Source of the DNA: Jiella pacifica
GTDB lineage: Bacteria > Pseudomonadota > Alphaproteobacteria > Rhizobiales > Rhizobiaceae
Length of the DNA: 64,000 bases
Direction of reading: 5' to 3'
Assembly: GCF_010500815.1 (NCBI RefSeq)
Contig: NZ_JAAAMG010000001.1
Location: forward strand, 434,001-498,000
The position numbers were made by a program, and so were the translations under genes. The notes below the pieces were generated by a model that did not search any database, was not told the DNA's origin, and saw nothing but the letters and a program-made list of their open reading frames with translations. Positions 20,539 through 41,483 of the stretch are shown in pieces (the first letter of the stretch is position 1; each line of letters opens with the position of its first letter).

Positions 20539-20991
20539 GTCAGCCGGCCGGGCGGCCGCTCCCGTCACATGCCGAAAGGCGGCGGGGGAGGAAAGTCCGG
20601 GCTCCACGGAGAGACGGTGCCGGATAACGTCCGGCGGGGGCGACCCCAGGGAAAGTGCCACAGAAACCAGACCGCCCCGCCTACAGTACGGCTCGGCCTC
20701 CATCGAGGCTTGGCGTCGAAGCTCGCGATCGAGCCGCACTGTTGGCGGGGTAAGGGTGAAAAGGTGGGGTAAGAGCCCACCGCGGCGCTGGCAACAGCGG
20801 CGGCATGGTAAACCCCACCGGGAGCAAGACCGAATAGGGACGACGTGGCGTGGGATTTCGTCCCACCGCCGGCCTCTCTCCGGGTCAGTCGTCCGGGTGG
20901 GTTGCTAGAGGCGGTCCGCAAGGGCCGTCCCAGAGGAATGGTCGCCGGGCGGCTTTGCCGCTCACAGAACCCGGCTTACAGGCCGGCTGAC
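20539..20991 (+). ncRNA. rnpB: RNase P RNA component, type A
   Basis: This is the catalytic RNA that matures tRNA 5' ends. The universally conserved elements appear in order: GAGGAAAGTCCGGGCTCC near 20587, ACAGAAACC near 20660, a GGTAAACCCCACC segment near 20807, AGAGGAATGGTCGCC near 20933, and CAGAACCCGGCTTA near 20965. The ends are set by the P1 helix: GTCAGCCGGCC (20539-20549) pairs with GGCCGGCTGAC (20981-20991), giving about 453 nucleotides. Location just before mraZ is usual in rhizobial genomes. Confidence 0.95.
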
Positions 20992-21595
20992 ACCACCCCC
21001 TTCGCCCCTTCGCTTTTTCGGCCCGAAGACGGTTGACCGAATTGCGACACCGCCGCCAGACGGGTCACCCTCCACGATCCGGTGCGGCCTTGCCATCCGC
21101 GCTGCGGAGATGTCGACGTTCACTCGCCGATCTGCCGACGCGTGTTCTCCTCCGACCAGATCCGTAGCCGGCTCGCGAATTTCGTGCGCGGCCGGGTCAC
21201 ATCGCTCGTCCATGCTGCGATGCGGTGTCGAAGGCCTTGTGCCACAGGCCTTGCGCGCTGTGCGACCGTTCCCATAGCCAAATTAGAAGCATCCATGACC
21301 AAGCTGGAATTCGTTAATATTAGTGGGACGTTAACGGCTCGTGGATAGGCTGGCGACTTCCTCGAACGAACGGCGCGACAGGTCGCTTCCCATTGACGCC
21401 CACGGACGCCCATGCTATCCCAAAAGCCATATCCAACGGGCCGTTTCAGGCCTCCATTCAAGCAAAGCGTGTCGTGCTTCCGGCCGTCGGAAGAAGCGGG
21501 TGGGGCTTCGTCGCAAGCCTTGGCCGGGGAATTGTGTTGTGCCTTCCATCGGGTGGATGCGGGGGTCGGGATGCCTGGCAAGGTGGATCGTGTAG
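20992..21595. other. Intergenic region and mraZ leader
   Basis: These 604 bases carry no convincing gene. Near 21314-21336 are GTTAA and TTAAC arms 13 bases apart. The mraZ promoter and MraZ box lie at 21388-21422 (separate entry). That leaves an untranslated leader of about 170 bases before mraZ, containing GGTGGAT twice, 30 bases apart (21552 and 21582). I found no U-rich terminator after rnpB. Confidence 0.5.
21388..21422 (+). promoter_or_regulatory. mraZ promoter with a four-copy MraZ box
   Basis: Four pentamers stand exactly 10 bases apart: TCCCA (21388), GCCCA (21398), GCCCA (21408), TCCCA (21418). On the minus strand these are TGGGN repeats with 5-base gaps, the known MraZ recognition pattern. 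The -35 TTGACG (21393-21398) and the -10 TATCCC (21416-21421), 17 bases apart, lie within the array, so bound MraZ would cover the promoter. This supports autorepression of the division operon. Confidence 0.75.
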
Positions 21596-25278: not shown

Positions 25279-26727
25279 ATGCAGCTCTCCCTTCTGGCAC
25301 AGGGGCTCGGCGCCATCGAGGGCGGTACCGACCCCGACGTCACATCCTTGACCGCCGATTCGCGGAAGGTGCAGCCCGGCGCGCTTTTCGCGGCATTGCC
25401 GGGGACGAAGGTCGACGGCTCGGCCTTCGTCGCGGATGCCGAGGCGAAAGGCGCGGCGGCGCTTCTGTGTCCCGAGGGGGCGAGCGTCGCCTCGCCGCTT
25501 CCGATCGTTCGCAGCGCCGATCCGCGCCACACGCTCGCCGTCATGGCGGCTCGGTTCTACGGTCCACAGCCCGAATGTCTCGTCGCCGTGACCGGCACAG
25601 CGGGCAAGACCTCCATCGCCACCTTCACGCGGCAGATCTGGGAGAAGGCCGGCTACGCCGCGGCCTCGATCGGCACCACCGGCGTCGTCTCGCCGAGCCG
25701 CACGATCGACGGCACGTTGACGACGCCCGATCCGATCGAACTCGCCGAGCTGCTTTCGGGCCTGGCCGCCGACGGCGTCACCCACGCCGCGATGGAAGCG
25801 TCGAGCCACGGTCTCGACCAGCGCCGGCTCGACGGCGTCCGCCTCAGCGCCGCCGCCTTCACCAATCTCGGCCATGATCACCTCGACTACCACCCGGATG
25901 CCGAGAGCTATTTCCAGGCGAAGATGCGGCTGTTCACGGCGCTTCTGCCGAGCGGCGGCGCGGCCGTCGTCAATGCCGATGACGCCTGGTCCGGCCGGGC
26001 GATCGAGGTCGCGACAGGGACGTCGGCCAAGGTGATGACGGTCGGCCGCAAGGGCGATTTCCTCAAGCTGAAGCGGCTCGAACACGAACGCTCGCGGCAG
26101 ATCGCTGAGATCGAGGCCGAGGGCCGCATCCACCGCATCGTCCTGCCGCTCGCCGGCAGCTTCCAGATGGCCAATGCGCTGGTCGCCGCGGGCCTCGCGA
26201 TCGCGACGGGGGTTCCCGTCGAGGACGCGTTGATGTCGCTCGAAGGGCTGAAGGGCGCCAGCGGGCGGCTGGAACTCGCCGGCACCACGGCGGTCGGCGT
26301 TCCGGTCTTCGTCGACTACGCCCACAAGCCCGAGGCGCTGGAAAACGTCATCACCTCGGTGCGCCCCTTCACCACCGGCCGTGTCGTCGTCGTCTTCGGC
26401 TGCGGCGGCGACAGGGACCGGGCCAAGCGTCCGATGATGGGCGAGATCGCGACGCGTCTCGCCGACGTGGTCATCGTCACCGACGACAATCCCCGCTCGG
26501 AGGATCCTGCCCGGATCCGCGCCGCGATCATGGCCGCCGCTCCGGGCGCGAGGGAGGTCGGCGATCGCCGTCTGGCGATCCGGGAGGCGATCCACGGCTC
26601 GGCGCCGGGCGACACCGTGATCGTTGCCGGCAAGGGACATGAAACCGGCCAGAAGATCGGCGAGGTGACGCAGCCTTTCAGTGACCACGCGGAAGTGCGG
26701 GCGGCGATTGCGGAGCTTCATGGATGA
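25279..26727 (+). CDS. murE: UDP-N-acetylmuramoyl-L-alanyl-D-glutamate--2,6-diaminopimelate ligase
   Basis: MurE adds the third residue of the stem peptide with ATP. The 482-residue protein has the Mur ligase P-loop [28 protein letters not shown], the core [10 protein letters not shown] and the motif [10 protein letters not shown]. The DNPR sequence there is typical of enzymes that use meso-diaminopimelate rather than lysine, in line with dapD and dapE in this window. I start at 25279 ([15 protein letters not shown] upstream). It overlaps murF by ATGA. Confidence 0.96.
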
Positions 26728-28211
26728 CGGAACTGCTTTGGGAGACGGCCGTCCTCATCGACGCGCTGCAGGCGCGCCCGATGGGCGATCTGCCCGAGGG
26801 CGTGACCGGTATCTCCATCGATACCCGCAGCCTCGAAAGTGGCGAAGCCTTCTTCGCCATCAGGGGCGAGCGCTTCGACGGCCATGATTTCCTGTCGACC
26901 GCGCAACGGGCCGGTGCCGGCATCGCCGTCGTCGCCGAGCAGAAGCTGCCGGCCCTCGGCCGGGTGCAGATCCCGATGCTGGTGGTCGACGACGTCCTGA
27001 AGGCGCTATCCCGGCTCGCCGAGGCCGCCCGTGCGCGGTCCAAGGCGAAGATCGTCGCGGTGACCGGCAGCGTCGGCAAGACCACCACCAAGGAAGCGCT
27101 GCGCCACGGCCTTGCCGCAGTCGGCAGCGTCCATGCGAGCGCCGCTTCCTTCAACAATCACTGGGGCGTCCCGCTGTCCCTCGCCCGGTTGCCGGCCGAG
27201 ACGAGCTATGCCGTCTTCGAGATCGGCATGAACCATCCGGGCGAGATCCGCCCGCTGGTCAAGCTCGTTCGTCCCGACGTCGCCATCGTCACCTTGATCG
27301 CGCCGGCCCATCTCGGCCATTTCCGCGACCTCGACGAGATCGCCGAGGCGAAGGCGGAGATCTTCGAGGGCGTGGTGCCGGGCGGCACGGCGATCCTGAA
27401 TGCCGACGATCCGAAATGCGGCCTGCTCGCCGACTATGCCCGCAAGACAGGCGTCGCCAATATCGTGACGTTCGGCGAGGGTGCCGGCGCCGATTTCAGG
27501 CTGATCGCCTACGAGGCGACGCGCGAGGGCGCCAAGGTCGACGCGGAGATCGCCGGCGAGCCGCTGCGCTTCTCGCTGGCGACGCCCGGCCGCCACATGG
27601 CTCAGAACGTTCTCGCCGTTCTCGGCGCGTGTCATCGCATCGGCGCCGACGTCGAGAAGGTCGCCTCGGCGCTGGCGGGGTGGCGCGCCGTCAAGGGCAG
27701 GGGCGCCCGCCACAGCCTGAGTCTCCCCGGCGGCGGCAAAGTCACGCTCGTCGACGACAGCTACAACGCCAATCCCGCCTCGATGCGCGCTGCCCTGGAA
27801 GTCCTGTCGCGGGCCGAGCCGGGCAAAGGCGCCCGGCGCATCGCCGTCCTCGGCGACATGCTGGAGCTCGGCACGTCTTCGGGTGAACTGCACGCCGCGC
27901 TGAAGGAACACGTCCTTGCGGCGAAGACCGATTTGGTATTTCTCGCCGGCGAAGAGATGAAGGCACTCGACGCGGCCCTGGCGGGCTCGCTGGTCTGCCG
28001 GTGGCACGAGAGCAGTGACCAACTCCTCGCCGATCTCGAAAGCACCATGGGCGACGGCGACGTCGTCCTGGTGAAGGCCTCCAAGAGTATTGGATTTTCC
28101 CGCTTGGTCGAAACCCTGCTGTCACGCCACGAAGATGAGACGGGGGCGGATAGACCCTCCGCCGAGCGCGGACCCGCGATGGCGGAGAAGACCTCGGGAG
28201 AGGCCAAATGA
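26724..28211 (+). CDS. murF: UDP-N-acetylmuramoyl-tripeptide--D-alanyl-D-alanine ligase
   Basis: MurF completes the UDP-MurNAc-pentapeptide by adding D-Ala-D-Ala. The 495 residues carry the P-loop [28 protein letters not shown], the nucleotide-site motif [15 protein letters not shown] and [10 protein letters not shown]. The C-terminal 30 residues are a variable hydrophilic tail ([19 protein letters not shown]). Start and stop both overlap their neighbours by ATGA (murE before, mraY after), so translation is coupled along the cluster. Confidence 0.96.
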
Positions 28212-29290
28212 TGGCCTATCTGGCGGAATTCGCCGACACCGTCCCGCTCTTCAACGTCTTCCGCTACATCACCTTCCGCACCGGCGCGGCGATGATCACC
28301 GGCTTCATCGTCGTCTTCCTGTTCGGGCCTGCGATCATCGCCGCCCTGAGGCTGCGACAGGGCCGCGGCCAGCCGATCCGTGCGGACGGACCGCAGACCC
28401 ACTTCAAGAAGGCTGGTACGCCGACCATGGGCGGGCTGATGATCCTGTCCAGCGTCATCGTCTCGACGCTGCTCTGGGCGGACCTGCGCAACATCTACGT
28501 CTGGACGGTACTGCTGGTTACGATTGGTTTCGGCGCCATCGGCTTTTACGACGACTATCTGAAGGTGACGAAGCAGAGCGACCTCGGCTTTTCCGGCCGG
28601 GCGCGACTGGCGCTGGAATTCGTCATAGCCGGCCTCGCCGTGGGGGCGATCGTCTATGCCGGGACGGACAGTTTCGCGACCTCGCTCGCCTTCCCCTTCA
28701 TCAAGGAAGTGCTGCTGAACCTCGGCCTGTTCTACGTCGTCTTCGGCGCTTTCGTCATCGTCGGGGCGGCCAATGCCGTCAACCTGACCGACGGGCTCGA
28801 CGGCCTCGCCATCGTGCCGATCATGATCGCCGCCGCCGCCTTCGGTCTGATCGCCTACATCTCGGGCAACGTGAACTTTTCCAACTACCTGCAGATCCAC
28901 TACGTCGCCGGCACCGGCGAGCTCTCGCCCCTTTGCGGCGCGGTGATCGGCGCCGGCCTCGGCTTCCTGTGGTTCAACGCGCCGCCGGCGGCGATCTTCA
29001 TGGGCGACACCGGCTCCCTGGCGCTGGGCGGCATGACCGGGGCCATCGCCGTCGCCACCAAGCACGAAATCGTCCTCGCCATCATCGGCGGGCTCTTCGT
29101 GATCGAGGCGATGTCGGTGATCATCCAGGTCGCGTCCTTCAAGCTCACGGGCAAGCGCGTGTTCCTGATGGCGCCGATCCATCACCATTTCGAGAAGCTC
29201 GGCTGGACGGAAAGCCAAGTGGTGGTACGCTTCTGGATCATCGCCTTCATGCTTGCCTTCGTCGGTCTGTCGACGCTGAAACTGAGATGA
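28208..29290 (+). CDS. mraY: Phospho-N-acetylmuramoyl-pentapeptide-transferase
   Basis: MraY is the integral membrane enzyme that transfers phospho-MurNAc-pentapeptide to undecaprenyl phosphate, making lipid I. The 360 residues contain about ten membrane helices. Family signatures are [10 protein letters not shown], the catalytic [23 protein letters not shown] and the C-terminal HHHFEKLGW. It overlaps murF by ATGA and is followed by murD after ten bases. The product would feed MurG, which is not found in this window. Confidence 0.97.
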
Positions 29291-29300
29291 GTGAGACGAG

Positions 29301-30701
29301 ATGATTCCCGTCACCAGCCTCGCCGGTGAACGTGTCGCCCTTTTCGGCCTCGGCGGATCGGGCCTTGCCACGGCCGAGGCGCTCGTCGCCGGCGGCGCCG
29401 ACGTTCTCGCCTTCGACGACAATCCGGCCAGCGTCGAAAAGGCGGCAGAGGCCGGCATCGGGACGGGTGATCTCAGGGGTGCCGACTGGACGCGGCTGTC
29501 CGCGCTCGTCCTGTCGCCCGGTGTGCCGCTCACCCATCCGAGGCCGCATTGGAGCGTCGATCTCGCCCGCATCCATCAGGTGCCGGTCATCGGCGACATC
29601 GAACTCTTCGCCCGCGAGCGAAGGGCGCGAGCCCCCGCGGCGCCGTTCGTGGCCATCACCGGCACCAACGGCAAATCGACGACGACGGCGCTGATCGCCC
29701 ACTGTCTGAGGGTCGCCGGCAAGGATACCCAGCTCGGCGGCAATATCGGCGTCGCCGTCCTCACCCTCGATCCGCCGACGCCCGAGCGCCACTATGTCGT
29801 CGAGTGCTCGTCCTACCAGATCGATCTGGCGCCATCGATCGAGCCGACCGTCGGCCTTCTCCTCAATCTGTCGCCCGACCATCTCGATCGTCACGGCAGC
29901 ATGGGCAATTACGCCGCGATCAAGGCCCGGCTCGTCGCCAATGCCGAGATGGCGGTGATCGGCATCGACACCGAGCCCTGCCGGCACATTGCCGAGGGCC
30001 TCGCCTCCGACGGCAGGGACGTGACCCGGATCTCGCAGTCCGCCGTTCTCGATCGTGGTGTCGGCTTCGACGGCAGGAGCCTCGTCCGAAGGATGGAGGG
30101 CTTCGCCGAGGCGCGATTCGATCTGTCGTCCATCGGCTCCCTGCGCGGGCGCCACAACGCCCAGAACGCCGCCGCGGCAGTCGCCGCGTTGACCCGTCTC
30201 GGCATCGACGACGAGACGATCACCAAAGGCCTGACGAGCTTTCCCGGCCTCGTCCATCGCATGGAGCAGGTCGGCCGCGCCGGCCCGGTCCTCTTCGTCA
30301 ACGATTCCAAGGCGACCAACGCCGATGCCGCGGCGCCGGCGCTGGCGGCGTTTCAGCGCATCTACTGGATTGCCGGCGGCCTTCCGAAGGAAGGCGGCAT
30401 CGCGCCTCTGAAGCCGTATTTTCCGCGCATCGCCAAGGCCTATCTGATCGGCGAGGCGGCTCCCGCCTTCGCCGCCACTCTTGGTGAACGAATTCCTTAC
30501 GAAATCTCTGGCACACTATCGGTCGCCGTCGAACATGCGGCGGCCGATGCGAAGGCGGCCGGAGAGGATTGCGTGGTTCTCCTGTCTCCGGCCTGTGCGA
30601 GCTTCGATCAGTTTCGGAATTTCGAGGTTCGGGGCGATGCTTTCCGCGCGGCGGTGGCAGGGCTGCCGGGCATCGAGGAGATCGGCGGAGAAGCCCGATG
30701 A
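29301..30701 (+). CDS. murD: UDP-N-acetylmuramoylalanine--D-glutamate ligase
   Basis: MurD adds D-glutamate to UDP-MurNAc-L-Ala. The 466-residue protein has an N-terminal Rossmann-like domain ([16 protein letters not shown]), the Mur ligase P-loop [37 protein letters not shown] and [13 protein letters not shown]. The C-terminal domain includes [12 protein letters not shown] and [14 protein letters not shown]. The stop codon overlaps ftsW as ATGA. The order mraY-murD-ftsW is that of other alphaproteobacteria. Confidence 0.96.
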
Positions 30702-31867
30702 TGAGTGCAGTGACGAGGCGGGAGACGGCGACGCTTCTCACGGATTGGTGGCGAAGCGTCGACAAGTGGCTTCTCGCCGCCTTCCTGATCCTTTTGGTCG
30801 CCGGCTTCATGCTGTCCTTTGCGGCAAGTCCGCCGGTCGCCGAGCGGATCGGGCTCGAGCCGTTCCACTTCGTCAAGCGGCACGCGCTCTTCCTCGCCCC
30901 CTCGGTCCTGGTGATGCTGGCCACCTCCATGCTGTCGCCCCGCGGCGTGCGGCGAGCCTCCTTCTTGATCCTTATCGGGGCAATCATCCTGATGATCGCC
31001 GCGCTGTTCTTCGGAACGGAGATCAAGGGCGCCCGGCGCTGGATCGACTTCGGCCCGCTCAACATCCAGCCGTCGGAATTCATGAAGCCCTGCTTCATCG
31101 TCATCTGCGCCTGGCTTTTGGCTGAAAAGGTCAAGCGCGCCGACGTGCCGGGCAATCTCTACGCGTTGATCCTGCTCCTGATCGTCACGGCGCTGCTCGT
31201 CGCCCAGCCCGATCTCGGCCAGACCATGCTCGTCGCCGGCGCCTGGGGCGGGCTCGTCTTCATGGCCGGCCTCTCCTGGCTGTGGATCGTCATGCTCGGG
31301 GGCGTCGGCCTTGCCGGCGCGGCGAGCGCCTATTTCATGTTCGACCACGTGGCGAGCCGCATCAACCGGTTCTGGACCGGCGAGGGCGACACCTTCCAGA
31401 CCGACCGGGCGCGCGAGGCGATCCTCAACGGCGGCTGGCTCGGCCAGGGACCGGGCGAGGGAACGGTGAAGCGGCTCCTGCCGGACAGCCACACCGACTT
31501 CGCCTTCTCGGTTCTCGCCGAGGAATTCGGCATCATCGCCTGCATGGTCCTGGCGACGCTCTTCGCCTTCGTCGTCCTGCGCGGGCTTTCCACGGCGCTG
31601 AAGCAGCGCGATCCCTTCGTGCGCCTGTCGATCTGCGGCCTCGTCTTCATCTTCGGCCTGCAGTCGATCATCAACATGGCGGTGAACCTGCAACTGATGC
31701 CGGCGAAGGGCATGACGCTGCCCTTCATCTCCTATGGCGGCTCGTCGATGCTGGCGATCGCCATGTCCGCCGGCTTCATCCTCGCTCTCACCCGCAAGCG
31801 GGCGGAGAACCGTTCCTACACCGACAAGCTCGTGCACAGGACGTGGGTGCTGCACGGGGCGACGTGA
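30698..31867 (+). CDS. ftsW: Septal peptidoglycan glycosyltransferase FtsW
   Basis: FtsW is the SEDS-family polymerase that works with FtsI at the septum. From the ATGA overlap at 30698 the protein has 389 residues with about ten membrane helices. SEDS landmarks are [29 protein letters not shown], the large periplasmic loop with [33 protein letters not shown], and the terminal [13 protein letters not shown]. It is the last gene of the cluster here. murG, murC, murB, ddl, ftsQ, ftsA and ftsZ, which normally follow, are absent downstream. Confidence 0.96.
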
Positions 31868-31981
31868 TCGGTGGCGGGGACAGCGCTGGGTATGGGAGGA
31901 TCGCCAAGCGAGCCAGGGGACTCGCGGCGATCCGCCCCGCGACAAGGCGAGGGATCTCGACTTTAGGCCCCGTCGTCCCCG

Positions 31982-32614
31982 TCATGGTCCTTCGACGTCG
32001 AACGACCCGAGGAAGCGCCCGATGGCGCGGTCGATCTCGTGCTGGGGATCCTCCGGTGTCGGCATGCGGTAGATGTGCTGACGTATGCCGAGATACACGA
32101 TGCCGCCGTGGAGCGACCACAGATCTTCCAGCGTCGGCTCTGAAGGGCTCGACGCGGCGACGCGAATTTCCTTCAGAAGAGGCTCCAGCAGCGTCTTGCT
32201 CAGATGGGTCAGATAGCGCTTGTTCAACTCCGCCCCGGCAAGCCCGGAGAACATGAAGATGCGCATCCAGTCGTGGTCGAAGATGCGACTGCCATAGTCG
32301 CGATAGAAGATCGACATGCGCTCGCCGATCGGCCGTGACCGGTCGCAGATCAGCGTCGGCCAATCCGGAGAGATGCGCTCCAGATAGACGCGGCCATAGA
32401 CCGCCTCGATCAGATCCTGCTTGGTTTCGAAATATTTGAAGATCAGCGACTGGGTCACCCCGAGGCGCCTTGCAAGCTCGCGGGTCTTTCCGTCGAGACC
32501 GACCTCGGCGAAGAAACGCACCGCCTCGTCGACGATCTGCTGCTGGCGTTCCTCCGGTGGAAGGCGCCGTCGATCGATTTCGGGCCGTGCTTCGGCCGGT
32601 TCCGTTCCACCCAT
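31982..32614 (-). CDS. TetR-family transcriptional regulator
   Basis: This 210-residue repressor has a TetR HTH at about residues 22-68 (QQQIVDEAVRFFAEVGLDGK, then LARRLGVTQSLIFKYFETKQ). The helical ligand-binding domain that follows contains DHDWMRIFMFSGLAGAELNKRY. It is divergent from the hydroxylase/TRAP operon. A perfect 14-bp inverted repeat stands between the two start codons, the classic TetR arrangement, so it most likely represses that operon until the pathway substrate or a derivative binds. Confidence 0.9.
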   Translation of the reverse strand: MGGTEPAEARPEIDRRRLPPEERQQQIVDEAVRFFAEVGLDGKTRELARRLGVTQSLIFKYFETKQDLIEAVYGRVYLERISPDWPTLICDRSRPIGERMSIFYRDYGSRIFDHDWMRIFMFSGLAGAELNKRYLTHLSKTLLEPLLKEIRVAASSPSEPTLEDLWSLHGGIVYLGIRQHIYRMPTPEDPQHEIDRAIGRFLGSFDVEGP

Positions 32615-32683
32615 CGCGATTCCATTCGTTTCCGTCGCCGCCCCTCCTTGATCGAACGGCCGATCTGACGCAATATACGCTTT

Positions 32684-32718
32684 AATGATCGATCGATGAA
32701 CAAGATCGATCGATCATT
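32684..32718. promoter_or_regulatory. Perfect inverted-repeat operator between the TetR gene and the hydroxylase operon
   Basis: The arms AATGATCGATCGAT (32684-32697) and ATCGATCGATCATT (32705-32718) are exact reverse complements separated by GAACAAG. The site lies 34 bases upstream of the first operon gene and 70 from the TetR start codon. Length, symmetry and position fit a TetR-type operator, and no other function is evident. Confidence 0.75.
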
Positions 32719-32751
32719 TGGGCCTGGGAGGGTCCTCGGGAGGAGATGATC

Positions 32752-33579
32752 ATGAAGGCTTCCATCGGAGGCTACACGCGCGCCGAGACGGTGTCGCATG
32801 CGCTTTCGCTGCTCGCCGAGGCGAACGGGGCAGGGCGCCTTCTGGCGGGGGGGCAGAGCCTCATCGCGGCGCTCAATCTCGGCACGACCTCCGGCGACAT
32901 GTTGATCGACATCGCGGGGATCGGCGCATTGCGCGGCGCGAGAATCGATGGCAACCGGCTGATCATCGGCGCGCTGACGCGCCATGCGGACATCGCCAGC
33001 GACCCGCTGATCGCAGAGCATGCACCGCTGCTGGCCAAAGCCGCGCCACTGGTCGCCCATGACGCGATCCGCAATCGCGGCACCATCGGCGGCTCCCTGG
33101 CCTATGCCGATCCGGCGGCCGAGTACCCGGCCTGTGCCATCGCACTCGACGCGACGATCATTCTGGAAGGGCCGAACGGAACCCGCCAAGTCGCGGCCCA
33201 GGACTTCTTTCTCGGACTGTTCGAAACGGCGCGGGCGGACGACGAAATCCTCGCCGCGATCGCCGTGCCGATGGCGGCGGACGGCGAGCGGCACGTGATC
33301 CGCGAGGCCGCGCGCCGGTCCGGCGACTATGCGCTTGCAGGCCTTGCCGTCGTCAGGCGCGACGGCCGCCATCGCATCGGCGCCTTCGCGCTCGGCGACC
33401 GCCCGCTTCTCTGCGAGGGTGCCATGGCCGCTCTCGACGGCGGCGACATCGACGGTGCGGTCGCGGCCCTGGCGACGGACGTCGATCCGACCAGCGACAC
33501 CCAGGCGAGCGCTGCCTATCGCCGCCACCTTGCCGGCGTTCTGTTGCGCCGGATCGCGATAGACCTTGGAGTGGGCTGA
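32752..33579 (+). CDS. Xanthine dehydrogenase/CO dehydrogenase family FAD-binding subunit
   Basis: This is the medium subunit (CoxM/XdhB type) that passes electrons from the iron-sulfur subunit to the final acceptor through FAD. The 275 residues contain the FAD motifs AGGQSLIAALNLG (about 33-45) and RNRGTIGGSLAYADPAAEYPAC (about 108-129), plus a C-terminal CO-dehydrogenase flavoprotein domain. GGAGG lies eight bases before the ATG at 32752; the ATG at 32746 is too close to it. The stop overlaps the next start as TGATG. It is the first gene of the TetR-controlled operon. Confidence 0.9.
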   Translation: MKASIGGYTRAETVSHALSLLAEANGAGRLLAGGQSLIAALNLGTTSGDMLIDIAGIGALRGARIDGNRLIIGALTRHADIASDPLIAEHAPLLAKAAPLVAHDAIRNRGTIGGSLAYADPAAEYPACAIALDATIILEGPNGTRQVAAQDFFLGLFETARADDEILAAIAVPMAADGERHVIREAARRSGDYALAGLAVVRRDGRHRIGAFALGDRPLLCEGAMAALDGGDIDGAVAALATDVDPTSDTQASAAYRRHLAGVLLRRIAIDLGVG

Positions 33580-34130
33580 TGACGGACAGTTTCCAGAGCC
33601 GGATCGACCTCGAAATGACGATCAACGGCGAAGCGGTGGAGCTGACGGTGCCGGCCGGCCGTCATCTGATCGACGTCCTGCGTCACGATCTCGGCCTGAC
33701 CGGTTCGCATGTCGGATGCGAGCACGGCGTCTGCGGTGCCTGCACGATCCTCGTCGACGATTCTACGGTGCGCGGCTGCCTGACGCTCGCTGCGCAGTTG
33801 CAGGGATGCGAGGTCTGGACGATCGAGGGGCTGACCGAAAAGGGCGTGATCGCCGATCTCCAGAAAGCGTTCGTCGAGCGCAACGCGCTGCAATGCGGCT
33901 ACTGCACGCCGGGCATGCTGGCCTCGGCGAAGGCGCTGGTCGAGGCGGAGGGGGTGCCGAGCCGCGAGACCATTCGCGAGCACATGTCGGGAAACTACTG
34001 CCGCTGCACCGGCTACGAGGCTATCGTCGACGCGATCGAGACCGTGGCGCGCCAGCGCGCCGACGAAACCGGGGCGCGTTCACGCGCCGGCGAGACCGTA
34101 GCCAAAGCGCGTGCCGGAGCGAGAAGCTGA
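33579..34130 (+). CDS. Xanthine dehydrogenase family (2Fe-2S)-binding subunit
   Basis: This small subunit (CoxS type) holds two [2Fe-2S] clusters. Of 183 residues, the plant-ferredoxin-like cluster is bound by CEHGVCGACTILV and a later Cys (VRGCLTL). The second cluster is bound by QCGYCTPGM and CRCTGYEAIVDAI. The last 25 residues are an Arg/Ala-rich extension not seen in most family members. It overlaps both neighbours by TGATG, so the three subunits should be made in equal amounts. Confidence 0.95.
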   Translation: MTDSFQSRIDLEMTINGEAVELTVPAGRHLIDVLRHDLGLTGSHVGCEHGVCGACTILVDDSTVRGCLTLAAQLQGCEVWTIEGLTEKGVIADLQKAFVERNALQCGYCTPGMLASAKALVEAEGVPSRETIREHMSGNYCRCTGYEAIVDAIETVARQRADETGARSRAGETVAKARAGARS

Positions 34131-36511
34131 TGACCATCCGTTTCGACGATCCGAACCGACCGAACAGCTATATCGGCCGCACGGTCCCCCGGCCGAATGC
34201 AGGCCGCCTCGTCGCCGGGCGCGGCCGCTATGTCGATGACATCACGCTTCCGCGGATGGTCCATGTGGCCTTCGTGCGCAGCCCCCATGCGCATGCGCGG
34301 ATCGGCGCGATCGAAACGGGTGAAGCCGAGACGCTGAAGGGCGTCCTGCGGGTTTTCACCGGACGCGATCTTGCCGAGGTCTGCACACCCTGGGAAGGCA
34401 AGCTTCTCCATCTCGAAGGCATGAAGACCCCGCCGCAGCATCCGCTCGCTCTCGACCGCGCCTGCTGGGTGGGCGAACCGGTCGTCGCGGTCGTCGGCCG
34501 GACGCGCGCCGACGCGGAAGCCGGCGCCGCACTCGTCGAGGTCGAGTTCGAACCACTGCCCGTCGTCACCGACATCCGGACCGCGCTCGATCCGGATACG
34601 CCCGTCCTGCACGAGGCGCTCGGCGACAATCTCTGCTTCCGCAAAGCCAACGAGAAAGGCGAGGTCGACCGGATCTTCGCCGAAGCGCACAAGGTCGTCG
34701 AGGCGTCGTTCAAGACCGCGCGCCACACGGGCGTGACGTTGGAACCGCGCGTCATCCTGGTCGACTGGAACGCCGGCGACGGCGAGATGACGGCGCATGT
34801 CTCGAACCAGGCGCCGCACATGTTGCAGCTGCTCCTCGCCGGCCACCTCGACATCCCGGAAAGCCGGGTGCGCGTCGTCTGCGGTGATGTCGGCGGCTCC
34901 TTCGGCGTGAAGGTCCACGTCTATCCGGACGAGGTCGCGACCGCGGCCATCGCCAAGATCATGGAACGGCCGGTCAAGTTCACCTCCGACCGCATGGAAG
35001 CCTTCATCGGCGACATTCACGCCCGCGATCACGAGGCGACCGGGCGGATCGCGCTCGACGAGAGCGGCAAGATCCTCGGTTTCGACGTCGACGACTGGAC
35101 CGGCATCGGACCCTATTCGATCTATCCGCGCACCTCGGCCGTCGAGGGCCTGCAGGTCACCAATCTGATCGGCGGCCCTTACGTCTTCGACCATTACCGC
35201 TGCCGCACGTCGGTCGTCTTCCAGAACAAGGGCATCTGCGCCCAGTATCGGGCGGTCGGCCATCCGGTCGCCGTGGCGATCACCGAAGGGCTCGTCGACA
35301 AGGCGGCGGCCGAGATGGGCATCGACCCGATCGAACTGCGCCGCCGCAATCTGATCGCCGACGATGCCTATCCGCTGACCACGGCCGCGGGCCTGAAGCT
35401 CGAGGGACTCTCCCATCACAGAAGCCTCGATGCCCTCGTCGAGGCGATGGACTACGAGGCCCTGCGCGCCGAACAGAAGGCGCTTCGCGAGAAGGGCATT
35501 CATCGCGGCATCGGCATCGCCAGCTTCATCGAGCTGACCAATCCATCCCCCTTCATGTACGGCATCGGCGGCGCCAGGATCTCGGCGCAGGACGGTTGCA
35601 CGGTTCGCATGGACCCGGATGGTTCGGTCGTCGCTCTGACGGGCATCACCGAACAGGGGCAGGGCACCGAGGCGATCATGGCCCAGATCGTCGCCGAAGC
35701 CGTCGGCGTGTCTCCCCAGATGGTCCGCATTGTGACCGGTGACACCCGCGTCACGCCGTTCGGCGGCGGCACATGGGCCTCGCGCGGCGCCGGCATCGGC
35801 GGCGAGGCGGCGCTTCAGGCGGGTCGTGCGGTGCGCGGGCAGGCGCTCGAGGTCGCCGCGTCGATGCTGCAGGCGAAAGCCGGCGATCTCGACATTCGCG
35901 ACGGCATCGTCGTCGATGCGGCCACCGGCGAGGAGCGCATGGCGCTCTCCGAGGTCGGGCGCGTCGTCTATTTCCGCGGGGACACGCTGCCGAAGGGGCT
36001 GCCGCGCGAACTGATGCAGACGCGGCACTTCATCACCTCGAACTACCCCTATGCCTTCACCAACGGCGTCCAGGCCTCCTATGTCGAGGTCGATGTCGAG
36101 ACGGGCTTCGTCAAGCTCCTGAAGCACTGGTGCGTCGAGGATTGCGGACGCATCATCAACCCGCTTCTCGTCGACGAGCAGATCCGCGGCGGCATCGTCC
36201 AAGGCATCGGCGCGGCGCTGTTCGAGGAGATCTGCTACGACGGCGAGGGCCAGATCCTGAACGGCACGATGGCCGACTATCTGGTGCCGATGTCGGGCGA
36301 AATGCCGGACATGATCATCCGCCATGTCGAGACGCCGACCGAGGAAAGCGAACTCGGGGCGAAAGGCGCGGGAGAGGCCGGCACCGCCGGTGCGCCGGCC
36401 GCCGTCATGAACGCGATCAACGACGCCATCCGCCCGCTCGGCGGGTCCGTCACGCATATGCCCTTCACGCCGGAACGCATCTTGCGCGCGCTCGGCACGA
36501 TCACTGACTGA
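34130..36511 (+). CDS. Xanthine dehydrogenase family molybdopterin-binding catalytic subunit
   Basis: This is the catalytic subunit of a molybdenum hydroxylase, 793 residues. It has the N-terminal ald_xan_dh_C domain (RLVAGRGRYVDDI, FVRSPHAHARI) and the Mo-binding domains with GDVGGSFGVK and GQGTEAIMAQI. The likely catalytic base is Glu749 in GAGEAGTAGAP. Xanthine dehydrogenases usually have YRGAGRPE near the Mo site and CO dehydrogenases YRCSFR; here the loop reads QYRAVGHPVAV (372-382), so neither xanthine nor CO can be assumed as substrate. The TRAP genes after it suggest an imported organic acid or N-heterocycle, but this is inference. Confidence 0.92.
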   Translation: MTIRFDDPNRPNSYIGRTVPRPNAGRLVAGRGRYVDDITLPRMVHVAFVRSPHAHARIGAIETGEAETLKGVLRVFTGRDLAEVCTPWEGKLLHLEGMKTPPQHPLALDRACWVGEPVVAVVGRTRADAEAGAALVEVEFEPLPVVTDIRTALDPDTPVLHEALGDNLCFRKANEKGEVDRIFAEAHKVVEASFKTARHTGVTLEPRVILVDWNAGDGEMTAHVSNQAPHMLQLLLAGHLDIPESRVRVVCGDVGGSFGVKVHVYPDEVATAAIAKIMERPVKFTSDRMEAFIGDIHARDHEATGRIALDESGKILGFDVDDWTGIGPYSIYPRTSAVEGLQVTNLIGGPYVFDHYRCRTSVVFQNKGICAQYRAVGHPVAVAITEGLVDKAAAEMGIDPIELRRRNLIADDAYPLTTAAGLKLEGLSHHRSLDALVEAMDYEALRAEQKALREKGIHRGIGIASFIELTNPSPFMYGIGGARISAQDGCTVRMDPDGSVVALTGITEQGQGTEAIMAQIVAEAVGVSPQMVRIVTGDTRVTPFGGGTWASRGAGIGGEAALQAGRAVRGQALEVAASMLQAKAGDLDIRDGIVVDAATGEERMALSEVGRVVYFRGDTLPKGLPRELMQTRHFITSNYPYAFTNGVQASYVEVDVETGFVKLLKHWCVEDCGRIINPLLVDEQIRGGIVQGIGAALFEEICYDGEGQILNGTMADYLVPMSGEMPDMIIRHVETPTEESELGAKGAGEAGTAGAPAAVMNAINDAIRPLGGSVTHMPFTPERILRALGTITD

Positions 36512-36556
36512 TATCATCGAGGCCGCCCGGGCGGCCGCATCTGGGAGGAATGAACG

Positions 36557-37609
36557 ATGAAGAAACTGCTTCTGGCATCGACCGTCATGGTCGGGCTCGC
36601 AGGCTCCGGCGCAGTCGCGCAGGAAAGCATCACCGTCAATATCGGCTCGTCGCATCCCGAACAGAACATCTGGGTCTATGCGATGAAGAACACCTTCCAG
36701 CCCACGGTCGACAAGATCCTTGCCGAGAAGGGCGAGTATCAGGTCGAGTGGGCGGAAGCCTACGGCGGCACCCTCTACAAATACACCGACACCCGCGAAG
36801 CCGTTCAGGACGGCATCGTCGACGTCGGGATGGTCGGCACGGTCTGGGAGGGCTCCACCATGCCGCTGCAGAACGTCACCTATTTCACGCCCTTCGCCAC
36901 TGCCGACCACAAGATGCTGATCGAGATCTTCGACGAGCTGAACGCCAGCCAGCCGGATCTCGTCAAGAGCTGGGACAGCTCGAACATGGTGCCTTTGTCC
37001 TCGCTGATCACCGACAGCTACGACGTCTATGCGACCTTCCCGGTGAACGAGATGAAGGATCTCCAGAACCGCCGGCTGAACGCCCCCGGCACCTCGGCCA
37101 ACTGGCTGCAGGGCACCGGGGCGACGCCCGTCGACGGCGCGCTGACGACCTACTACACCAACATCCAGACAGGCGTGACCGAGGGCACGCTGTCCTTCGC
37201 CTCGGGCATCCTGCCGACCCGCGTCTACGAGGTCGCGCCGGAGTTGACGCGCGTCGGCATCGGCTCGATGTATTTCGGCTCGATCGCCGCCAACAAGGAC
37301 TTCTTCGACGGACTGCCCGAGCCGGTGCAGGAGGCGTTCCGCGAGGCCGGCAAGGCGACATCGAAAGCCCATGGAGACTACGTATCGAAGCTCGCCGAAA
37401 AGGCGATGACGGACATGCAGGCCGCCGGTCTCAAGGTTCACGACCTTCCCGACGATCAGAAGGCGGCTTGGGTGAAGGGCCTGCCGGACATCGTCCAGCC
37501 CTGGCTCGACCAGACCGGCGACGCCGGCAAGGCGGTCCTTAGCTCCTATTTCGCCGCCCTGCGCGAGCGTGGTGCGACGCCGCTGCGCAACTGGGACGAA
37601 GGCCGCTGA
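36557..37609 (+). CDS. TRAP transporter substrate-binding protein (DctP family)
   Basis: This is the periplasmic receptor of a tripartite, ion-driven importer. The 350 residues begin with a Sec signal peptide (MKKLLLASTVMVGLAGSGAVAQE). The mature protein contains the DctP-type core (YTDTREAVQDGIVDVGMVG, RRLNAPGTSANWLQGTGATPV, FFDGLPEPVQEAFREAGK). GGGAGGA lies upstream of the ATG. It follows the hydroxylase by 45 bases on the same strand, and its ligand is probably the hydroxylase substrate. A carboxylate ligand is typical of the family. Confidence 0.92.
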   Translation: MKKLLLASTVMVGLAGSGAVAQESITVNIGSSHPEQNIWVYAMKNTFQPTVDKILAEKGEYQVEWAEAYGGTLYKYTDTREAVQDGIVDVGMVGTVWEGSTMPLQNVTYFTPFATADHKMLIEIFDELNASQPDLVKSWDSSNMVPLSSLITDSYDVYATFPVNEMKDLQNRRLNAPGTSANWLQGTGATPVDGALTTYYTNIQTGVTEGTLSFASGILPTRVYEVAPELTRVGIGSMYFGSIAANKDFFDGLPEPVQEAFREAGKATSKAHGDYVSKLAEKAMTDMQAAGLKVHDLPDDQKAAWVKGLPDIVQPWLDQTGDAGKAVLSSYFAALRERGATPLRNWDEGR

Positions 37610-37679
37610 TCCGATCACCCCGTAATGCGACCGCCCGGCACCGTCGGGCGGCCTTCTTGTCCCGAACGTTCGAGCGATC

Positions 37680-38255
37680 ATGAGCGAACCCAACATCATG
37701 GAACCGCAGCAGGCGGAGGGCGAGATCATCCCCGCCTTCGCCGAGGCGCCGGTCGGCTTCGTGCTGGGTACGGTGACCGCCGTGCTGTCCTCCGTCGGCA
37801 CTTTGTGGATCGGCTTTCTGATGGCGCTGATCGTCGCCGACGTGATCGGCCGTAATTTCTTCAACGCTCCCATCACGGGCGTGGCGGAGGTCGCGGGACA
37901 TTCGGTCGTGGCCATCGTCTTCCTCCAGACGGCGGCGGCCATCATGCAGGGTCGCCTGACCCGTGCCGACTTCCTGTTCCGCCGGATCGCCGATCGCAGC
38001 CCGCGCTCCGGTGCCGCGCTGGAAAGCCTCTTCTGCCTTGTTGGTACTCTCGTCTTCGGCCTCGTCGCTTACGCGTCGTGGGACAAGATGGTCGCTGCCT
38101 TCATGCGGAGCGAATTCTTCGGTGTCCAGGGCGTCTTCACCGTGCCGACCTGGCCGTTCCGCGCGATCATCGTCGGAGGCTCGATCATCGCGGCGCTTGC
38201 CGCGCTCTACCGGGCCATTCATCGCAATCCGCTTCCCACGGGACAGGTCGAATGA
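37680..38255 (+). CDS. TRAP transporter small permease (DctQ family)
   Basis: The 191-residue small membrane subunit has four predicted helices: near FVLGTVTAVLSSVGTLWIGF, LMALIVADVIGRNFF with the next helix GHSVVAIVFLQTAAAIM, LESLFCLVGTLVFGLVAY, and AIIVGGSIIAALAALYRA. A DctQ-like RADFLFRRIADRSPR loop lies between the second and third. It overlaps the large permease by ATGA, as is usual. The N-terminal 25 residues are acidic and cytoplasmic. Confidence 0.9.
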   Translation: MSEPNIMEPQQAEGEIIPAFAEAPVGFVLGTVTAVLSSVGTLWIGFLMALIVADVIGRNFFNAPITGVAEVAGHSVVAIVFLQTAAAIMQGRLTRADFLFRRIADRSPRSGAALESLFCLVGTLVFGLVAYASWDKMVAAFMRSEFFGVQGVFTVPTWPFRAIIVGGSIIAALAALYRAIHRNPLPTGQVE

Positions 38256-39586
38256 CCTCGCTCGAGATCGGCTTTCTCCTGATCGGCCTTCTCGTCGGGC
38301 TCGTCCTGTTCGGCATGCACATCGCCTATGCGCTTCTCGGCGTGGCGTTTCTCGGCATCTGGCTGATCCGCGGCAATATCGACCTGTCGCTGCGCATGCT
38401 CGAACTCACCGCCTATAGCGGCATCTCGGACTATCTCTTCGCCACCATCCCGCTCTTCGTCCTGATGGGGCTTCTGGTCAGCGTCTCGAATGTCGGACGG
38501 GACACGTTCGAAGTCGCGGAAGTTCTCCTGAAGCGCGTGCTCTGCGGGCTCGGCGTCGCGACCGTCGCGGCGAACACCGTCTTTGCGGCGGTCACCGGCG
38601 TCTCGATCGCCTCGGCGGCGGTGTTCACCCGCGTCGCCGTGCCGGAAATGACGCGCCACGGCTACAAGGCATCGTTCAGCGCCGGGACCGTCGCCGGCTC
38701 TTCGGTCCTCGGCATGCTGATCCCGCCGAGCCTGCTCCTGATCATCTACGGCGTCCTCGCCGAGGTCTCGATCGGCGGCATGTTCATCGCCGGCATCGTG
38801 CCCGGGGTGATGCTGGCGCTCGGCTTCGTGGTCATGCTGATGGCGCTGGCGGCCCTGGCGCCGGGTTTCGTCTTCTCCGACCCCGAGGCTGCGAGGTCTC
38901 GCCGGATGGATGCGAATGCCGGCCCGCACCTGACGCCCGGCGAGATCCTTCTGAAGCTCGTCCCGATCATCCTCCTGATCATTCTGGTCCTTGGCGGTCT
39001 CTATACCGGCTTCTTCACGCCGACCGAGGCCGGCGGCGTCGGCGCCTTCGGCGCGCTCCTCATCGCCATCGGCCGGCGCAGCCTCGACCGGCGCAAGCTC
39101 TGGCAGGTGATGAAGCAGACCGGCACCGTCTCAGTCTCCATCCTCTTGCTGCTCATCGCAGCGAGTTTCTATTCGCGCATGCTGTCGATTGCCGGGCTGC
39201 CGAACGCCATCCAGTCCCTCGTCGTCGACAGCGGCTTCGGCCACTGGGGCTTCGTCCTGCTCTATGTCGCGCTCGTCTTCCTGATGGGGATGATCCTCGA
39301 CTCGACGTCGATCCTCCTCATCGTCGTGCCGATTGCCGCCCCGATCGCCCAGGGGCTCGGCTTCGACCTCTTCCATTTCGGCATCATAACCGTGCTGGCG
39401 GTCGAGATCGGTCTGTTGACGCCGCCCTTCGGCATCTCGGTGTTCACCGTTCACAACACGCTGAACGACCCGGGGACGTCGGTCGAGGCGATCTTCCTCG
39501 CGACGATGCCCTTCATCCTGGTGATGCTGATCGTCCTCGGGATCGTCATCGTCGCACCTCAGACCGCGACGCTGTTTCTCGGGTGA
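38252..39586 (+). CDS. TRAP transporter large permease (DctM family)
   Basis: This is the transport channel, 444 residues with about 12 membrane helices. DctM signatures include PLFVLMGLLVS, FAAVTGVSIASAAVFTRVAVPEM, SVLGMLIPPSLLLIIYGVLAEVSIG, TPTEAGGVGAFGALL and EIGLLTPPFGISVFTVH. The ATG at 38252 overlaps the small-permease stop. The gene ends the operon that began at 32752. Together with 36557 and 37680 it makes a complete TRAP system. Confidence 0.93.
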   Translation: MTSLEIGFLLIGLLVGLVLFGMHIAYALLGVAFLGIWLIRGNIDLSLRMLELTAYSGISDYLFATIPLFVLMGLLVSVSNVGRDTFEVAEVLLKRVLCGLGVATVAANTVFAAVTGVSIASAAVFTRVAVPEMTRHGYKASFSAGTVAGSSVLGMLIPPSLLLIIYGVLAEVSIGGMFIAGIVPGVMLALGFVVMLMALAALAPGFVFSDPEAARSRRMDANAGPHLTPGEILLKLVPIILLIILVLGGLYTGFFTPTEAGGVGAFGALLIAIGRRSLDRRKLWQVMKQTGTVSVSILLLLIAASFYSRMLSIAGLPNAIQSLVVDSGFGHWGFVLLYVALVFLMGMILDSTSILLIVVPIAAPIAQGLGFDLFHFGIITVLAVEIGLLTPPFGISVFTVHNTLNDPGTSVEAIFLATMPFILVMLIVLGIVIVAPQTATLFLG

Positions 39587-39629
39587 GCCGGCGCCGCTGG
39601 AGTTCAGCCGCCCGACGTCAGACCCGCCT

Positions 39630-41483
39630 TCATTCCGCGTGTTCGGCGATCACCGACAGGAAAGCCGGTCCGTACCGGTCGAGCTTGGCTTCGCCCACAC
39701 CCGGGACCCTGGCCATCTCGGACCGCGAGCCGGGTCGGGCCGCCGCGAGCTCGATCAGCGTCTTGTCGTGGAAGATCACATAGGGCGGCACGTTTTGCAG
39801 ACGGGCGATTTCCATCCGCTTCTGGCGCAGCATCTGGAACAGCGCCCGGTCCGCCTCTGGAACGGCGGATTGCTGCGCCGAGCCGCCCGAGGCTCTGCCT
39901 CCTGCGGCCTTGCCGCGCCGGGCGCGGGGTGGCGGCGGAACGCGCAGCATCAGGTCGGGTTTTTCGCGCAGGAAATCCCGGCCGGCCTCGGCGATCGACA
40001 GCCCGCCATGGCCGGCGTGGTCGACGTCGACGAGGCGCAGCGCGATCAGCTGGCGCAGGATCGCCCGCCACAGGCGGCTGTCGTGCTCTGTGCCGATTCC
40101 GAAGGTGGAGATCTTGTCGTGGCCGAACTGGGCGATGCGGTCGTTCTCGACGCCGAGGAGAACGTCGACGACATAGGCCTGGCCGAAGCGCTCGCCGGTG
40201 CGGTAGATGCAGGAAAGGGCCTTCTGCGCCGCGATCGTGCCGTCGAAGAGCTGCGGCGGCTCCAGGCATGTGTCGCAATTGCCGCAGGGCTCGCAGTGGT
40301 CGCCGAAATAGGACAGGAGCACCTGCCGCCGGCAGCCCGCCGTCTCGGCGAGCCCCAGCAGCGAGTCGAGCTTCTGCCGCTCCGTCCGCTTGCGCTGTTC
40401 GGGCGCGTCGGACTCCTCGATGAAACGGCTGCGCAGCGCGATGTCCTCGTGGCCGTAGAGCATCAGCGTGTCGGAGGGCAGGCCGTCGCGACCGGCGCGG
40501 CCGGTCTCCTGATAATAGGCCTCCAGGCTCCCCGGCAGGTCGAGATGGGCGACGAATCGCACGTCCGGCTTGTCGATGCCCATGCCGAAGGCGATCGTGG
40601 CGACCATGATCACCGCCTCGCCATGCTGGAAGCGCAGCTGGTTGGCCTCTTTCTCCGCCTTGTCCATGCCGGCATGATAGGCGAGCGCGTCGTAACCCTC
40701 GGATCGCAGCCAGACCGCCGTTTCGTCGGTCTTGCGCTTCGACAGGCAGTAGACGATGCCGCTCTCACCCTCGTGGCGCCGCAGAAACTCCTTCAGCTGG
40801 GCGCGGGGATTGTCCTTTTCGGCGATGGCATAGCGGATGTTGGGGCGGTCGAAGCCGGCGATGAAGGCATCGCTCTCGGCGATGCCCATATGCGAGAGGA
40901 TCTCGGCCCGCGTCGGGGCGTCGGCCGTCGCGGTCAGCGCCATGCGCGGGGTCGTCGGAAACTCCCGGGCGAGGACGTCAAGCTGGCGGTAGGAGGGGCG
41001 GAAGTCGTGGCCCCACTGGGACAGGCAGTGGGCCTCGTCGATGGCGATCAGCGACAGTCGCGTCCTTGAGAGCCGCTCCAGCACGCCGCCGCGCAAAAGC
41101 GTCTCGGGGGCGACATAGAGAAGGTCGAGCCCGCCGGTCTCGATGGCCTCCCACAAGGCCCGCCGCTCTTCCGGCGGCAGGTCGGAGTTGAGCGCGGCCG
41201 CCCGCACACCCGCCTGCCGCAGAGCGGCCACCTGATCGGCCATCAGCGCCAGCAGCGGGGAGACGATCAGCCCCATGCCGGGCCGGGCGAGGGCCGGGAT
41301 CTGGTAGCAGAGCGACTTGCCGCCCCCGGTCGGCATCAGCACGAAGGCGTTGTTGCCGGCGATCACATGCTCGACGATGCGCGCCTGCGGCCCGCGGAAC
41401 GCATCATAGCCGTAGACGGTCTTGAGGATTTCGAGGGCGTTGCCGGACATCAGATTTCGCATGAGGAATCGCGTGAGCCTCAT
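39630..41483 (-). CDS. recQ: ATP-dependent DNA helicase RecQ
   Basis: RecQ unwinds DNA 3' to 5' in recombination and repair. The 617-codon frame has Walker A LMPTGGGKSLCYQIP, the DEAH box IDEAHCLSQWGHDFRPSY, helicase motifs V-VI (MVATIAFGMGIDKPDVR, QETGRAGRDG), and an RQC domain with zinc cysteines CRRQVLLSYFGDHCEPCGNC plus the following Cys. A C-terminal HRDC domain spans about 540-615. The start is uncertain: 41483 is the first ATG, and Met at 41450 (MSGNALEIL) is plausible. It is convergent with the TRAP operon. Confidence 0.95.
   Translation of the reverse strand: MRLTRFLMRNLMSGNALEILKTVYGYDAFRGPQARIVEHVIAGNNAFVLMPTGGGKSLCYQIPALARPGMGLIVSPLLALMADQVAALRQAGVRAAALNSDLPPEERRALWEAIETGGLDLLYVAPETLLRGGVLERLSRTRLSLIAIDEAHCLSQWGHDFRPSYRQLDVLAREFPTTPRMALTATADAPTRAEILSHMGIAESDAFIAGFDRPNIRYAIAEKDNPRAQLKEFLRRHEGESGIVYCLSKRKTDETAVWLRSEGYDALAYHAGMDKAEKEANQLRFQHGEAVIMVATIAFGMGIDKPDVRFVAHLDLPGSLEAYYQETGRAGRDGLPSDTLMLYGHEDIALRSRFIEESDAPEQRKRTERQKLDSLLGLAETAGCRRQVLLSYFGDHCEPCGNCDTCLEPPQLFDGTIAAQKALSCIYRTGERFGQAYVVDVLLGVENDRIAQFGHDKISTFGIGTEHDSRLWRAILRQLIALRLVDVDHAGHGGLSIAEAGRDFLREKPDLMLRVPPPPRARRGKAAGGRASGGSAQQSAVPEADRALFQMLRQKRMEIARLQNVPPYVIFHDKTLIELAAARPGSRSEMARVPGVGEAKLDRYGPAFLSVIAEHAE

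Follow-up and report, generated by a model that had tools for sequence, protein, structure and literature searches.

What compound, or compounds, does an operon serve that encodes both a molybdenum hydroxylase and a complete tripartite ATP-independent periplasmic (TRAP) importer? The question is raised by a cassette at positions 31982-39586 of a 64,000-nucleotide stretch of the Jiella pacifica genome (NZ_JAAAMG010000001.1, positions 434,001 to 498,000), which we call the window. The original prediction, made from the DNA alone, described a TetR-controlled hydroxylase whose FAD, 2Fe-2S, and Mo subunit genes share one strand with those of all three TRAP components, with overlaps or short gaps. 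All seven genes are confirmed: a divergent TetR gene lies on the minus strand and is followed on the plus strand by the genes for the FAD, 2Fe-2S, and Mo subunits and for DctP, DctQ, and DctM (Table 1). The intergenic distances from TetR to DctM are, in order, 131, -1, -1, 45, 70, and -4 bases, leaving the six plus-strand genes overlapping or separated by at most 70 bases, and all seven proteins score above the Pfam cut-off of their own family. The balance of the evidence tips, in our judgment, slightly towards a self-contained, TetR-controlled uptake-and-hydroxylation cassette for which an N-heteroaromatic substrate is most likely.

The cassette is real, conserved, and common to many alphaproteobacteria. 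A DctP search of 101 genomes led to 20 of the best-matching loci, each taken with 20 kb of sequence. The seven relatives with at least 54% DctP identity all preserve the full gene order of the cassette. The 13 remaining loci (DctP 36-44%) gave no match to a hydroxylase subunit within 20 kb. With the Mo-subunit alignment as query, named genomes yielded at least 454 confirmed candidates, and the best 80 of these, which are not a census, divide into 70 with a TRAP importer, seven too short, two with an ABC importer, and one with neither. Within these 80, TRAP genes are present in 60 of the 62 loci with more than 4600 bases downstream, a divergent TetR gene in 52 of the 58 with more than 3200 bases upstream (it is missing at L112, L123, L126, L127, L133, and L142), and both in 46 of the 51 loci with both flanks. 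Hosts include Jiella, Aurantimonas, Fulvimarina, Roseivivax, Roseibium, Salipiger, Stappia, Mameliella, Roseomonas, and others, and the cassette is also found on the Dinoroseobacter plasmid pDSHI05. No flanking gene family recurs in a majority of the 80 loci; since the most frequent appears in only 18, at varying positions, the seven genes appear to travel together. Wider draws at the level of the class (E <= 1e-180) and the order (E <= 1e-240) found a close Mo subunit in 24 of 385 and 41 of 397 genomes, respectively, the J. pacifica genome being counted in both. The search for this gene order elsewhere, proposed with the original prediction, thus recovered it in 7/7 close relatives and in most named loci. 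The accompanying claim that the operon is a candidate for an undescribed pathway is weakened, as the cassette is not peculiar to the window and has close relatives in many alphaproteobacteria; no paper on it turned up in the open-licence PMC literature, as judged by listings.

The best evidence that the enzyme would act on the imported compound is that two unrelated importers fill the same slot. In sister lineages a branched-chain-type ABC importer follows the same FAD-FeS-Mo head, mostly with a divergent TetR gene. These ABC-type relatives comprise Methylobacterium plasmids (64% Mo identity), the G303 family, and several further relatives, and 18 of 131 Mo-subunit rows carry the ABC label. 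In a tree of the 131 Mo subunits, built by a quick method without bootstraps, an 87-row clade (Shimodaira-Hasegawa-like approximate likelihood ratio test, SH-aLRT, 100) contains 77 of the 78 TRAP rows, the remainder being seven short rows, two without an importer, and one ABC row. The sister of this clade has 19 rows, 11 labeled ABC and eight none, and the ABC label requires six changes on the tree. Transporter labels were assigned by tblastn at fixed distances, with nine of the 131 rows too short to judge, and ‘none’ covers L200-L202, which have ABC-importer-like ATPase matches further downstream. Neighbor genes here and below were named from representatives, some but not all members being scanned against Pfam. 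The conserved order, the non-homologous transporter swap, and the candidate operator described below support the proposal that a single compound is both imported and given its first oxidation.

The regulatory region has a TetR_N-domain protein, a divergently transcribed gene, and a palindrome in between; the TetR protein reached no NCBIfam cut-off. A perfect inverted repeat lies in the 131-base TetR-FAD intergenic region, and no perfect 14+14 repeat with a spacer of up to 10 bases arose in 2000 mononucleotide shuffles of this region, a lenient control. We compared 67 TRAP-type TetR-FAD intergenic regions, a set that leaves out the ABC types and five duplicate genomes and retains the identical pair L092/L153. 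Of the 67, 58 contain ATGATC and 58 contain GATCAA, against 9.2 and 9.3 expected from dinucleotide shuffles, and 32 contain ATTGATCA, against 0.8 expected, although these regions are related by descent and the excess overstates their independence. The window palindrome has the ATGATC core, the exact TGATCA being absent. It is likely, as judged from these patterns, that the palindrome is the TetR operator. A sigma-70 scan of 31840-39720 gave no promoter-like site. Within the operon, the stem-loop between dctP and dctQ is a possible attenuator that would favor DctP expression; the 78 bases around it are no more stably folded than shuffled sequence (z 0.00), and no gain over shuffles was seen in any of the three gene gaps that were folded as RNA.

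Table 1. Features of the hydroxylase-importer cassette, in window coordinates
Feature	Position	Strand	Evidence
TetR-family regulator	31982..32614	-	PF00440 2.1e-11, 43.8 bits, cut-off 24
Candidate TetR operator, perfect 14-base inverted repeat, 7-base spacer	32684..32718	.	Repeat search, shuffles, shared core
FAD subunit, 277 aa	32746..33579	+	FAD_binding_5 1.8e-43, CO_deh_flav_C 8.2e-12
2Fe-2S subunit, 183 aa, one-base overlap with FAD gene	33579..34130	+	Fer2_2 2.7e-29, Fer2 3.7e-09
Mo subunit, 793 aa, ATG overlaps preceding stop	34130..36511	+	MoCoBD_1, MoCoBD_2, Ald_Xan_dh_C
TRAP substrate-binding protein DctP, 350 aa, Asn175 for canonical Arg	36557..37609	+	PF03480 1.4e-25
9-pair GC-rich stem-loop, weak T tail, between dctP and dctQ	37631..37651	+	
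TRAP small permease DctQ, 191 aa	37680..38255	+	PF04290 2.9e-17
TRAP large permease DctM, 444 aa	38252..39586	+	PF06808 3e-77; TIGR00786 288.5 bits, cut-off 268.45

The enzyme has the makeup of a xanthine-oxidase-family heterotrimer, with FAD, two 2Fe-2S, and MoCo domains above Pfam cut-off. Such enzymes are numerous in alphaproteobacteria, the J. pacifica genome itself giving 14 match rows, and to our knowledge most of those in the class have no assigned substrate. None of the three subunits reached an NCBIfam cut-off. The best score of the Mo subunit, whose query in the Pfam, NCBIfam, and solved-structure searches carried two extra residues ahead of the ATG, was to glyceraldehyde dehydrogenase alpha (523.8 bits of 790; beta 199.7 of 350, gamma 174.5 of 290), and the xanthine dehydrogenase models were likewise missed (Mo 411.8 of 780 and 403.2 of 916, FAD 113.6 of 310, FeS 166.3 of 217). 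The nearest solved Mo subunit is that of quinoline 2-oxidoreductase (Qor, 1t3q_B, 1.3e-137), followed by a CoxL. The window protein aligns with Qor over residues 16-790 and keeps the Glu of the active-site loop, and Qor has the same FAD/2Fe-2S/Mo architecture; the two differ in a loop that reads QYRAVGHP in the window and AYRGVGFT in Qor, and in that the window enzyme is tied to a TRAP importer. Residues E205, R374, and E749 are invariant in all eight rows of alignment A1 and align with the corresponding residues of an XdhB-like protein from the same genome, E749 lying in GAKGAGEAG opposite GEPP of that row. We take E749 to be the catalytic Glu of the C-terminal loop and assume the roles of E205 and R374 likewise. 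In the own-genome alignment, the strand of five rows is undecided by stop codons, and G000_L004 and G000_L006, which look misread, were disregarded. These residues place the Mo subunit among the hydroxylases and name no substrate; a substrate test based on them was dropped because too many branches have the same Glu and Arg.

Form I aerobic CO dehydrogenase carries its Cu-binding Cys in the loop AYxCSFR. The window cassette shares the FAD-FeS-Mo architecture of CoxMSL, and 17 of the 131 rows have CoxG no more than 9 kb from the Mo gene, but QYRAVGHP replaces the Cys loop and the CO dehydrogenase models score 522.8 and 453 bits against cut-offs of 950 and 991.15. CO dehydrogenase was therefore rejected. 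The original view that xanthine, CO, nicotinate, or aromatic aldehydes could not be chosen among from sequence holds in general, with CO now set aside. The genome encodes a separate CoxL (G000:C17, L003) with the loop AYRCSFR, about 2 kb from an XdhC_CoxI gene (C17:4069-4266). PF02625 (XdhC_CoxI) has three matches in the genome and none in the window, in agreement with the earlier remark that no XdhC-type chaperone is nearby; the nearest match lies on the same contig about 36 kb past the cassette.

The importer is a TRAP system by all three components: PF03480, PF04290, and PF06808 were matched above cut-off, as were TIGR00786 and NF037995 (74.2, cut-off 50). An AlphaFold model of DctP (predicted local distance difference test, pLDDT, 86.8) aligns with 4n6d over 306 residues (VIA-align best Z 32.2, root-mean-square deviation 2.4), giving the fold of a TRAP substrate-binding protein (SBP). 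The system resembles the ectoine importer TeaABC in its three components and SBP fold, TeaA, 4n6d, and 4nap being the nearest solved sequences, but differs in that the carboxylate-binding Arg is replaced in 83 of 83 cassette DctPs, by Asn in 67, Ser in 15, and Ala in one (the set includes five genomes twice and one identical pair). The Arg is also missing from all 17 rows of alignment A2, nine of them relatives at ~40% identity, while the same column is Arg in the five solved SBPs displayed. Fischer et al. (PMC4646407) state that 98% of DctP proteins carry this Arg, that 199 of 6142 in their own count do not and most often have Phe instead, that the residue restricts TRAP substrates to carboxylates, and that the acid group of the ligand contacts it in the solved complexes surveyed. 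They also describe Tp0957, with Ala at this position and a hydrophobic pocket. Absence of the Arg is thus a rare but known exception, and the assignment to the TRAP family stands. As DctP does not have the carboxylate-binding Arg, a usual organic acid is an improbable ligand, and judging from the DctP sequence a non-acid ligand is likely. Ranking of ligands by DctP structure was dropped, the Z scores of many TRAP SBPs being too close.

A broader and tentative proposal, which we think has a minority chance of being right, is that the Arg-less TRAP clade imports neutral N-heterocycles and that one branch of it has become firmly coupled to a dedicated Mo hydroxylase, forming a portable unit for import and hydroxylation whose importer can be exchanged. 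Two related TRAP groups were seen, in which one member per neighbor family was scanned. Members of an Arg-less group at ~40% DctP identity (L052, L054, L055, L056, and L062) lie with genes for an amidohydrolase, a CoA-transferase III, a short citrate-synthase-like protein, and an IclR regulator, with an intradiol dioxygenase as well at L055, L056, and L062. The other group (L053, L057, L060, and L061) has a beta-keto acid cleavage enzyme, a TetR_C_30 regulator, and a PF04199 cyclase with 68-75% identity to the cyclase beside the Mo cassette L127.

We hold the N-heterocycle class of the substrate with moderate confidence, on the hints given by Qor as the nearest solved enzyme and by the genes beside relatives. 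The Methylobacterium cassettes are neighbored by NCS1-racemase-MFS-uraH-uraH-uraD-monooxygenase genes, the monooxygenase being closest among solved proteins to 2,6-dihydroxypyridine hydroxylase (2vou, 3e-46; 1.6e-42 for the L154 copy). Ten of the 131 rows (L112, L146, L151, L154, L155, L203, L204, L212, L213, and L214) have a member of this monooxygenase family at most 9 kb from the Mo gene. A hydroxyquinol-type dioxygenase (1tmx, 1.6e-84) lies beside L051, L124, L125, L132, L133, L143, and L196, and PF04199 cyclases (isatin-hydrolase-like, 5.4e-9) beside L127, L134, L136, L203, and L204, L203 also having an adjoining beta-keto acid cleavage enzyme. More distant relatives (45-51%) are accompanied by genes of the asparaginase, amidohydrolase, or ornithine-cyclodeaminase type. 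In our view, these partners fit best with a pathway that opens a hydroxylated N-ring. At L157 (7155-12645) and L158 (6419-11871), two tandem Mo subunits, ~60% identical to that of the window, adjoin an acyl-CoA dehydrogenase gene, and tblastn at 1e-12 found no FAD or 2Fe-2S subunit at these loci.

Several observations weigh against an N-heteroaromatic substrate. Among TRAP rows, the monooxygenase is nearby in L112 and L204 only. A search of 22 genomes, nine of them with the TRAP cassette, found the monooxygenase (E <= 1e-20) in one of the nine (G079, 35%), the dioxygenase (E <= 1e-20) in three (G029, G079, and G099), and the cyclase (E <= 1e-40) in three (G029, G079, and G347), and all three families are absent from the window's genome and from G001, G006, G035, and G049. 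A universal second step was rejected, since each of the three fails to track the TRAP cassette over the 22 genomes. UraD (PF09349) is present in 22/22, the window's genome included, with or without a close DctP, and is uninformative as a discriminator. The partner genes are therefore branch-specific or ubiquitous, and their chemistry is not simply transferable to the window. In addition, the dioxygenase beside some cassettes is equally compatible with a benzenoid route, as are the pca-like genes adjoining L155 and L212, and the substrates of relatives at 45-66% identity may differ.

A purine would be a special case of the N-heteroaromatic reading: the enzyme would be a heterotrimeric, quinone-dependent xanthine or methylxanthine C-8 dehydrogenase whose product enters the common urate pathway, with no extra genes needed. 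PMC4408171 describes CdhABC and TmuM; caffeine dehydrogenase CdhABC (EC 1.17.5.2) is a heterotrimer of the same superfamily in a C-8 oxidation pathway. Nothing links the window cassette to caffeine. The urate-type genes beside the Methylobacterium relatives (64%), the presence of UraD, and the Glu and Arg that the Mo subunit has in common with xanthine dehydrogenase all fit this idea. However, UraD is in every genome searched, with or without a close DctP, the Glu and Arg occur in other branches too, the Xdh NCBIfam cut-offs were missed, and a purine does not account for ring-cleavage dioxygenases beside some of the cassettes. Among solved structures the Methylobacterium monooxygenase is nearest to 2,6-dihydroxypyridine hydroxylase, and no HpxO structure passed 1e-20. 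PMC4562309 describes the urate hydroxylase HpyO. Methylobacterium genomes are labeled cdhABC in PMC10499228, which is annotation and not assay and was not used as support. We regard a purine as unlikely, with an appreciable if small chance of being correct.

Alternatives outside the neutral N-heterocycles fare less well. An aldehyde oxidase, converting an imported aromatic or furanic aldehyde to an acid for protocatechuate-type routes, is suggested by pca-like genes upstream of L155 and L212, with an AMP-dependent ligase downstream, and by glyceraldehyde dehydrogenase alpha as the top NCBIfam score. That score is below its cut-off, the nearest solved structure is a quinoline hydroxylase, and the complete pca-like set was found only beside L155, the source of the queries, and L212 among 20 loci examined; only the lyase of this set was Pfam-scanned, one other member matched an intradiol query at 31%, and the rest were named by place and length. 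We consider this alternative improbable. A carboxylated heteroaromatic of the nicotinate or picolinate type, its carboxylate bound by other DctP residues, is scarcely as probable as that: ligand acid groups meet the Arg in the TRAP complexes surveyed in PMC4646407, and aromatic-acid SBPs are among the structural neighbors of DctP (Z about 30), but the Arg is gone from every cassette DctP, Tp0957 offers a precedent for a hydrophobic pocket, and small Z differences among TRAP SBPs do not rank ligands. That the importer handles one compound and the enzyme another, with co-regulation as their only link, for example through the TetR ligand, is very improbable. Nothing speaks for it directly beyond the fact that a common operon is by itself no proof of one substrate, and it sits poorly with an order conserved over many genera and an unrelated importer in the same place.

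Cell-wall genes resembling murF-mraY-murD-ftsW, named by reading translations, precede the cassette (window 26724-31867), and murG is on another contig (G000:C10:64135-65202). The cell-wall cluster seems to be broken where the cassette sits. The FtsW-like protein gave no tblastn match (E <= 1e-8) around the cassette in the loci of 20 relatives, Jiella pelagia included. The only Rfam family found at gathering thresholds in the whole window is a class A RNase P RNA (20540-20994, 295.9 bits), and ARAGORN found no tRNA there.

Returning to the favored N-heteroaromatic cassette, we propose that without inducer TetR would occupy the palindrome between its own gene and the operon. DctPQM would take up one compound, probably not bound through a carboxylate, and the FAD/2Fe-2S/Mo enzyme would hydroxylate it with water and pass the electrons onward, possibly to an acceptor on the membrane or quinone side, as CoxG near some relatives suggests. 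The compound would most likely be a pyridine-, pyrimidine-, or purine-like N-heteroaromatic, hydroxylated at a carbon adjoining the ring nitrogen. Because the window's genome gave no match to the monooxygenase, dioxygenase, or cyclase seen beside relatives, later steps there would have to use other genes, which for a purine could be the general urate pathway, UraD being present.

The conserved cassette gives three handles on one compound: the ligand of DctP, the inducer of TetR, and the activity of the enzyme. If DctP binds a neutral heterocycle, this would contradict the view, given in PMC4646407, that the Arg limits TRAP transporters to acids, and it would also name a nitrogen compound scavenged by these bacteria.

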